Source of the DNA: Saccharomonospora piscinae
GTDB lineage: Bacteria > Actinomycetota > Actinomycetes > Mycobacteriales > Pseudonocardiaceae
NCBI RefSeq assembly: GCF_005862235.1
Contig: NZ_VCEK01000002.1
Location: 892,534 to 956,533 of the forward strand
Direction: 5' to 3'
Length of the DNA: 64,000 nt
This document shows, in pieces, positions 22,303 through 22,365 of the stretch (its first letter is position 1; each line of letters begins with the position of its first letter). The translations under genes and the position numbers were made by a program. The notes under the pieces are model-generated. The model did no database searches and was not told the DNA's origin. It saw only the letters and a program-made list of their open reading frames with translations.

Positions 22303-22365
22303 ATCGTGTCCGCAGCCCCCGTAGCCGTGTCCGCACTTCCCGTAGCCGTGTCCGCACCTCAGGGG
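22303..22365. repeat. Triple 21-bp tandem repeat, locus 1
   Basis: Three head-to-tail 21-bp units (22303-22323, 22324-22344, 22345-22365), each containing GTGTCCGCA; the first two end in CCCGTA. The core is invariant and the 4-6 bases after it vary. It lies in the divergent gap between rmlA (33 bp upstream of its ATG) and the CstR-like gene. A second array with the same unit is at 34683-34745. 21 bp equals two helical turns, so the cores face the same side of the DNA. Confidence 0.85.

Follow-up and report, generated by a model that had tools for sequence, protein, structure and literature searches.

The genus Saccharomonospora carries a family of repeat arrays in which a 9-bp core, GTGTCCGCA, recurs in tandem at a rigid pitch of 21 bp, and two of these arrays lie in the window analysed here (the whole 64,000-nucleotide stretch of Saccharomonospora piscinae DNA). 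The family is genus-specific: no triple of units was found outside Saccharomonospora, either in 150 relatives or in 394 genomes of the class. It also looks to be undescribed. We propose that the arrays may be phased DNA-binding platforms at gene ends, serving a putative core-recognising protein, a tentative reading of sequence patterns to which we assign a probability of roughly 0.42.

The initial annotation had described three head-to-tail 21-bp units between the rmlA and cstR genes, and a second triplicate in the same orientation 12 kb away. Both arrays were confirmed, at 22306-22368 and 34686-34748. They share one orientation, are 12.4 kb apart, and each occupies a gap between divergent genes. 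Their distances to the minus-strand rmlA-like gene (start 22269) and the minus-strand DUF2630 gene (start 34627) are likewise as had been given, 33 and 55 bp. Gene starts and gaps were taken from our own codon-usage gene-calling script, with no annotation used. The features are as follows, the neighbouring genes being given for context only.

22306-22326, plus strand: array 1, unit 1, GTGTCCGCA GCCCCC GTAGCC; core at 22306-22314, exact
22327-22347, plus strand: array 1, unit 2, GTGTCCGCA CTTCCC GTAGCC; core at 22327-22335, exact
22348-22368, plus strand: array 1, unit 3; core at 22348-22356, exact; the linker fades into the flank
34686-34706, plus strand: array 2, unit 1, GTGTCCGCA GCCTGC GTAGCC; core at 34686-34694, exact
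34707-34727, plus strand: array 2, unit 2, GTGTCCGCA GTCCGC GTAGCC; core at 34707-34715, exact
34728-34748, plus strand: array 2, unit 3, GTGTTCGCA CTTCGC GTAGTC; core at 34728-34736, one mismatch
22270-22278, minus strand: degenerate opposite-strand core GTGTCCGGC, two mismatches, touching the rmlA start codon
21388-22269, minus strand: nucleotidyl transferase (PF00483), rmlA-like, neighbour of array 1
22435-22704, plus strand: metal-sensitive repressor (PF02583), CsoR/CstR-like, neighbour of array 1
34385-34627, minus strand: DUF2630 protein (PF10944), neighbour of array 2
35005-37665, plus strand: GAF-GGDEF-EAL protein, neighbour of array 2

The degenerate core at the rmlA start may be a chance match. 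Just downstream of array 1, a palindrome resembling TACCCCCAGGGGT lies at 22389-22405, before the PF02583 gene, and may presumably be the repressor's own operator. Neither strand of 22200-22450 or 34600-34850 gave an Rfam match up to E = 1. Taken singly, the 9-mer GTGTCCGCA is not enriched in the window (21 matches with at most one mismatch, against 34 expected), while 21-bp triples of cores with at most one mismatch occur twice in the window and never in 20 mononucleotide shuffles. The signal is therefore the spaced array. The earlier wording that cores are fixed while linkers vary is right about the variable linkers and the near-fixed core, but it is slightly too strong, as five of the six window cores are exact.

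Genome-wide, the array family is large and its pitch is invariant. The 4.9-Mb S. piscinae genome (G000; 11 contigs) contains 321 pairs of exact cores, 157 forward and 164 reverse. When spacings of 19 to 23 bp were allowed, by comparing patterns with 10 to 14 intervening bases, all 321 pairs were at exactly 21 bp; a reversed control pattern gave no pair in the same genome. Eight of the 12 Saccharomonospora genomes are carriers, with 321, 197, 138, 46, 30, 156, 80 and 202 exact pairs. The remaining four have none, and three of these four are drafts of 82-83% completeness. Among the 150 relatives, our genome included, nine have an exact pair: the eight Saccharomonospora carriers and a single genome from a different genus, in which two pairs stand isolated. 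A degenerate triple occurs in eight of the 150, every one a Saccharomonospora, and the S. piscinae genome is the only one of the 394 class genomes with an exact triple. The initial annotation had proposed a dispersed intergenic repeat to be sought across the Pseudonocardiaceae. Dispersal beyond the two window sites and intergenic location are both upheld by the 321 pairs and by arms (runs of units in one orientation) that are 97-100% intergenic in S. piscinae, in G005, taken as S. viridis, and in G002, taken as MAG DX1.bin91; its range turned out to be one genus and not the family.

The matches listed in a wider search amount to at least 73 stretches, 32 from Saccharomonospora sp. NB11 or MAG DX1.bin91 and 41 from other taxa. 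Among these 41, 27 have two units only and 14 have three to nine (at most two core mismatches); in each of the 41 the repeat falls within an open frame of 54-1686 aa, and the linkers are unlike those of Saccharomonospora. A tandem 9-mer at 21 bp thus also occurs elsewhere, as the 14 stretches among the matches listed with at least three units demonstrate. We followed two of the other-taxon sources further, L033 and a Sandaracinus MAG. The latter, Sandaracinus sp. NAT131, accounts for four of the 41 stretches among the matches listed (L096, L081, L057 and L032). Tandem repeats of its own, partly at contig ends, contain the 9-mer (GTGTCCGCAGGAC...) and have closely similar linkers. Its spacings are 19, 20, 21 and 23 bp, with 12 of 47 pairs off 21 bp as compared to none of 321 in S. 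piscinae, and it is probably unrelated to the Saccharomonospora arrays.

The unit consists of GTGTCCGCA, six variable base pairs and GTAGCC, the tail being mostly GYACGC in sister species. The GTAG form occurs in most S. piscinae units and in part of those of G002 and G005, while GYAC is found mostly in G001, G003, G004, G009 (taken as S. cyanea) and G010. The arms hold two to eight units, and an unselected 800-kb stretch of the S. piscinae genome contains 31 of them. When exact cores on opposite strands are neighbours less than 150 bp apart, seven of nine such cases are spaced at 17, 38 or 59 bp. This spacing of 17 + 21k means that arms converge on a palindrome in register, often head-on. The reverse layout was seen at G000:C3:677549-677679 (L137), where a minus array is followed by a plus array in back-to-back order, with a GC-rich hairpin in the middle, in the gap between two convergent genes. 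In the upstream flanks that we profiled, information is concentrated in the two to four bases that directly precede the first core, with a G at -6 in S. piscinae, and no separate terminal modules were seen. Only eight of the 98 exact cores in the 800 kb are isolated, which equals the background, since seven other 9-mers have total counts of 4-13. Accordingly, we rejected a dispersed uptake sequence.

The contrast between core and linker within arrays is sharp. In units flanked on both sides by exact cores, so that the core of the scored unit is not itself selected, each core position is 93-100% conserved, positions 10-15 vary, and positions 16 and 19 are near-fixed. The cores of these sandwiched units deviate at 9 of 693 positions in S. 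piscinae, 0 of 378 in G005 and 2 of 243 in G002, while the linkers differ from those of their left neighbours at 194 of 924, 95 of 504 and 79 of 324 positions, respectively; for S. piscinae the rates are 1.3% and 21%. A core that stays near-invariant while its linkers change indicates that something recognises it, and this within-array contrast suggests selection on the core in place.

CRISPR repeats are near-identical, are about 25-40 bp long and have unique spacers. Here, the conserved block of the unit is about 15 bp, and the same 6-bp spacers turn up in different arrays (the 191 S. piscinae spacers comprise 64 kinds, the commonest occurring 36 times), and on these grounds we rejected a CRISPR assignment. 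Two contigs of the S. piscinae assembly, C3 and C4, have their first bases inside arrays, so the family probably breaks assemblies. This has a practical side, as the arrays might also be taken for CRISPRs, some of the nine S. viridis CRISPRs in PMC3035233 included. That genome paper counts nine CRISPRs and the S. cyanea genome paper none, and array-like repeats are unmentioned in both, as far as a term search of their text goes. A term search of the genus comparison PMC7990883 likewise gave no mention of repeats. In the open-licence literature on Saccharomonospora, actinobacterial palindromes and gene-end repeats, we found no description of the array family among the papers listed. This is in line with the initial annotation, which knew of no such system, although absence from that literature does not show absence from print.

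Where do the arrays lie relative to genes? In the sampled 1.19 Mb of S. piscinae, the number of loci per kb of intergenic DNA is 1.29 in convergent, 0.53 in co-directional and 0.10 in divergent gaps (20, 28 and 4 loci), so that the convergent density is about 13 times the divergent one; 800 kb of this sample, from contig C3, is contiguous and unselected, and the other 20 stretches were picked for arrays seen there. The corresponding densities are 1.02, 0.22 and 0.19 in G005 (13, 13 and 4 loci), where 20 extra stretches were picked for arrays seen there, and 3.1, 0.83 and 0.33 in G002 (12, 8 and 2 loci), whose rows derive from 25 loci among the matches listed, two of them from one contig and possibly overlapping. 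Moreover, the arms abut gene ends. A stop codon on the same strand lies within -20 to +15 bp of the arm start for 41 of 73 S. piscinae arms (14.4 expected; none of 20000 simulations reached this), 14 of 37 in G005 (7.4 expected, P 0.004) and 12 of 26 in G002 (6.0 expected, P 0.003). The expectation places each arm at a random position and strand inside the same gap, and the arms tested are those inside called gene gaps (73 of 78, 37 of 38 and 26 of 36). Some genes terminate on a TAG supplied by the repeat itself, with gaps of 2 or -19 bp, and TAG is the stop at seven of the 41 S. piscinae arms. The strand preference is weak: in co-directional gaps of the three genomes, 24 loci are sense, 13 antisense and 12 both. 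The initial annotation had regarded the arrays as a regulatory element preceding minus-strand genes. Divergent gaps are rare among array loci, however, so the window arrays are a minority, untypical in place, and a promoter-side role is not supported.

We also considered whole arrays as transposon ends and abandoned the idea, as ordinary genes occupy the intervals between inverted arrays at C3:39980-41942, 171567-173132 and 412191-413168. They encode a dehydrogenase, a beta-lactamase fold protein, an FMN reductase, a TetR protein and a piece of an aldo/keto reductase. A 108-residue aldo/keto reductase piece between two inverted arrays, at L124:12726-13052, is probably a gene remnant.

Next, we compared arrays between species. 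In their aligned blocks, G001 and G009 have 86.6% identity. From G001 to G009, eight of 15 loci have a syntenic target in the fetched stretches, and six of these eight targets hold an array; of the other seven loci, four are without a syntenic target and three have flanks at least 2.5 kb apart in the target. In the other direction, from 18 loci, five of nine syntenic targets hold an array. At about 70% protein identity, six syntenic gaps were found in which at least one of the two species has an array, and the array is shared in only one of them. Unit numbers change as well, by whole units: one G001/G009 orthologous locus has four versus three units, and a second has three in G001 and a degenerate two in G009, where the copy has decayed below our detection rule. 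Neighbouring units in the same array are identical in 28-36% of cases as compared to 1-3% for units of different arrays, which points to local duplication. In G009, four arrays lie about 3.5 kb apart (C1:652276, 655861, 659326 and 662868), the last three with identical linkers, and this series suggests a tandem segmental duplication that carried the array along.

At seven G001/G009 loci, compared with the target unconditioned, the core mismatches at 36 of 201 positions (0.179) and the linker at 44 of 132 (0.333). The flanks of these loci, which are partly coding, mismatch at 74 of 443 (0.167) and 92 of 466 (0.197) positions, similar to the core. As the orthologous core is not below its flanks, orthologues do not prove selection in place. 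An apparently strong core constraint (0.109 against 0.223 in the flank) had emerged from a comparison in both directions with the target required to hold an array; this comparison is biased by ascertainment, the unconditioned one is weaker, and we set the former aside. The orthologue tests dropped loci with gaps over 400 bp.

How might such arrays function? In our preferred reading, a sequence-specific protein would recognise the core in double-stranded DNA. Since 21 bp corresponds to two helical turns, the bound copies would all sit on the same side of the DNA, and the arrays would form binding platforms at the ends of transcription units. The most plausible role of such a platform would be that of a roadblock or boundary that stops transcription from entering the neighbour. 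The arms would grow and shrink by slippage or unequal exchange. The fixed two-turn pitch, the protected core and the changing spacers are consistent with a protein recognition site, and the protein-binding array that the initial annotation had pictured remains plausible on the same sequence features. The abutment to stop codons and the avoidance of divergent gaps fit a gene-end architecture. The avoidance, at least, also fits a tolerated parasite, as has been argued for BOX, RUP and SPRITE, and the enrichment in convergent gaps counts against the platform insofar as tolerated parasitic repeats such as BOX show it, too (PMC3049150). Also weighing against it are the weak strand preference in co-directional gaps, the rarity of shared array positions at about 70% protein identity and the orthologous cores, which are no better kept than their flanks.

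The closest rival reading is a parasitic or neutral repeat of the BOX/REP/MITE type, spread by a core-recognising enzyme and surviving behind stop codons as the least harmful place. We prefer the binding platform and regard such a repeat as nearly as likely. The restriction to one genus, with 30-321 exact pairs in eight carriers and none in four other members, speaks for it; array presence mostly differs between distant species, and the tails vary at the level of whole species (GTAGCC or GYACGC), which would follow from the spread of new variants. A bias toward convergent gaps is known for BOX, RUP, SPRITE and IS elements (PMC3049150). In contrast, no associated transposase came to light: Y1 transposases (PF01797) occur in four of 12 Saccharomonospora genomes, one of them a non-carrier, and are absent from five of the eight carriers (G001, G002, G005, G009 and G010), a distribution on which we rejected a RAYT/IS200 mobiliser. 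By eye, five two-armed loci have no consistent target-site duplication, one of them (146900) having the same hexamer on both sides, and in a comparison of filled and candidate empty sites the species were too diverged for placing the element ends. No viral contig contains an exact triple, a 111-bp array stretch has no match in the plasmid collection, and the rigid pitch and core-only conservation exceed what copying alone predicts. A parasite's enzyme must also recognise the core, so the two readings are not exclusive. Plain functionless minisatellites, kept by slippage only, would account for the identity between neighbouring units and for the unit-wise length differences between species. They would not preserve 9 bp and a 21-bp pitch next to linkers that differ by about 20%, nor occupy so many unlinked places with one core, nor abut stop codons; the core-linker contrast in particular is strongly against them, and we consider them highly improbable.

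If the arrays acted as RNA, the transcribed palindromes would be bidirectional hairpin terminators or stabilisers of mRNA 3′ ends, and both the stop-codon abutment and the convergent gaps would suit this role. Two-armed arrays do fold much more strongly than shuffled sequences, with a mean z of -5.96 at 19 convergent and -8.02 at six co-directional gene ends, and an unrelated palindrome in G040, a genome of another genus of the family, also stands behind stop codons in convergent gaps (4/4). However, one-armed arrays fold little beyond array-free gene ends: in co-directional gaps the mean z is -1.05 (13 sense) and -1.57 (7 antisense) versus -0.89 in 60 array-free controls, and in convergent gaps -1.39 (8 antisense) and -2.76 (9 sense, somewhat stronger) versus -1.95 in 60 controls. 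The common feature is thus the DNA sequence and not an RNA hairpin. In addition, a simple scan of G000 and G005 found T-tract hairpins in none of 96 array gaps, although they are rare in array-free gaps as well (16 of 489); canonical terminators were dropped as a candidate, the scan giving no clear separation of gene ends with and without arrays. Antisense-only arrays exist, too. In G001 and G009 an array is kept behind a tRNA-Glu gene (the tRNA is confirmed in G001), and in G001 a hairpin of 10 bp with a run of T, seen by eye and omitted by the scan, which allows loops of 3-8, lies between the two, which argues against the array being needed for termination there and weighs against the binding platform. 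We judge an RNA element to be distinctly unlikely. The direction taken by the initial annotation, an operator family for a transcription factor acting on downstream promoters, would suit the window arrays and the four of 52 sampled S. piscinae loci in divergent gaps. Such gaps are the least favoured per kb in all three genomes (0.10 versus 1.29 convergent in S. piscinae, 0.19 versus 1.02 in G005 and 0.33 versus 3.1 in G002), and 12 flanking genes scanned have ordinary, diverse functions with no evident one in common; this explanation has very little chance of being correct.

The binding-platform reading can be extended by analogy. Many gene ends in Saccharomonospora might be marked by helically phased arrays in which a single dedicated protein occupies a repeated 9-bp site, isolating convergent neighbours, with other genera of the family using unrelated sequences at the same place, a proposal that we regard as rather unlikely in this full form. 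Protein-roadblock terminator arrays exist elsewhere, for example the Sal-box repeats behind animal rRNA genes, and if the proposal were true, the Saccharomonospora arrays would be a bacterial counterpart.

The best descriptions of small interspersed repeats come from proteobacteria and streptococci. A genus-wide actinobacterial family that combines rigid pitch, core-only conservation and stop-codon placement offers a clean system for asking if repeats of this kind are parasitic or belong to the architecture of gene ends. Like the arrays, pneumococcal BOX elements are interspersed and intergenic, contain a tandem module (boxB) in variable number, are over-represented between convergent genes and are nearly confined to one lineage (PMC3049150). 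BOX has the end modules boxA and boxC (PMC3049150), whereas the upstream flanks of the arrays that we profiled show none, and the array unit differs in its 21-bp length, its rigid pitch and the frequent pairing of arms in inverted orientation. REP/BIME elements with RAYT transposases share with the arrays the many extragenic copies and the inverted pairing (PMC2817692). REP palindromes carry a conserved tetranucleotide, GTAG or GTGG, at their foot; among the arrays a GTAG motif is present in one species group, and GYAC replaces it in other species. In contrast to REP/BIME, five of the eight carriers are without a Y1 transposase, and the arrays are basically direct tandems of 21 bp. The Haemophilus uptake signal sequences that double as terminators resemble the arrays in their 9-bp core, in being often inverted pairs and in their location at gene 3′ ends, but they are enriched as dispersed copies (PMC5217627), while isolated array cores are at background. 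The TAACTGA direct repeats of Beggiatoaceae and cyanobacteria are also short intergenic direct-repeat sets, present in great number and without known function; they are 7 bp long and in the Beggiatoaceae genome lie mostly just before start codons (PMC4679880), whereas the arrays have 21-bp units and are in excess just after stops. Similar in placement is the G040 palindrome (L255-L258), which begins 6-16 bp after a stop codon. It differs in its core, GAATGTCGCATT, and is a single hairpin with no tandem, present in only four copies with both arms exact. Amycolatopsis genomes have palindromic repeats of the same kind. With the G040 palindromes standing behind stops as the arrays do, placement at gene ends may be a wider habit.
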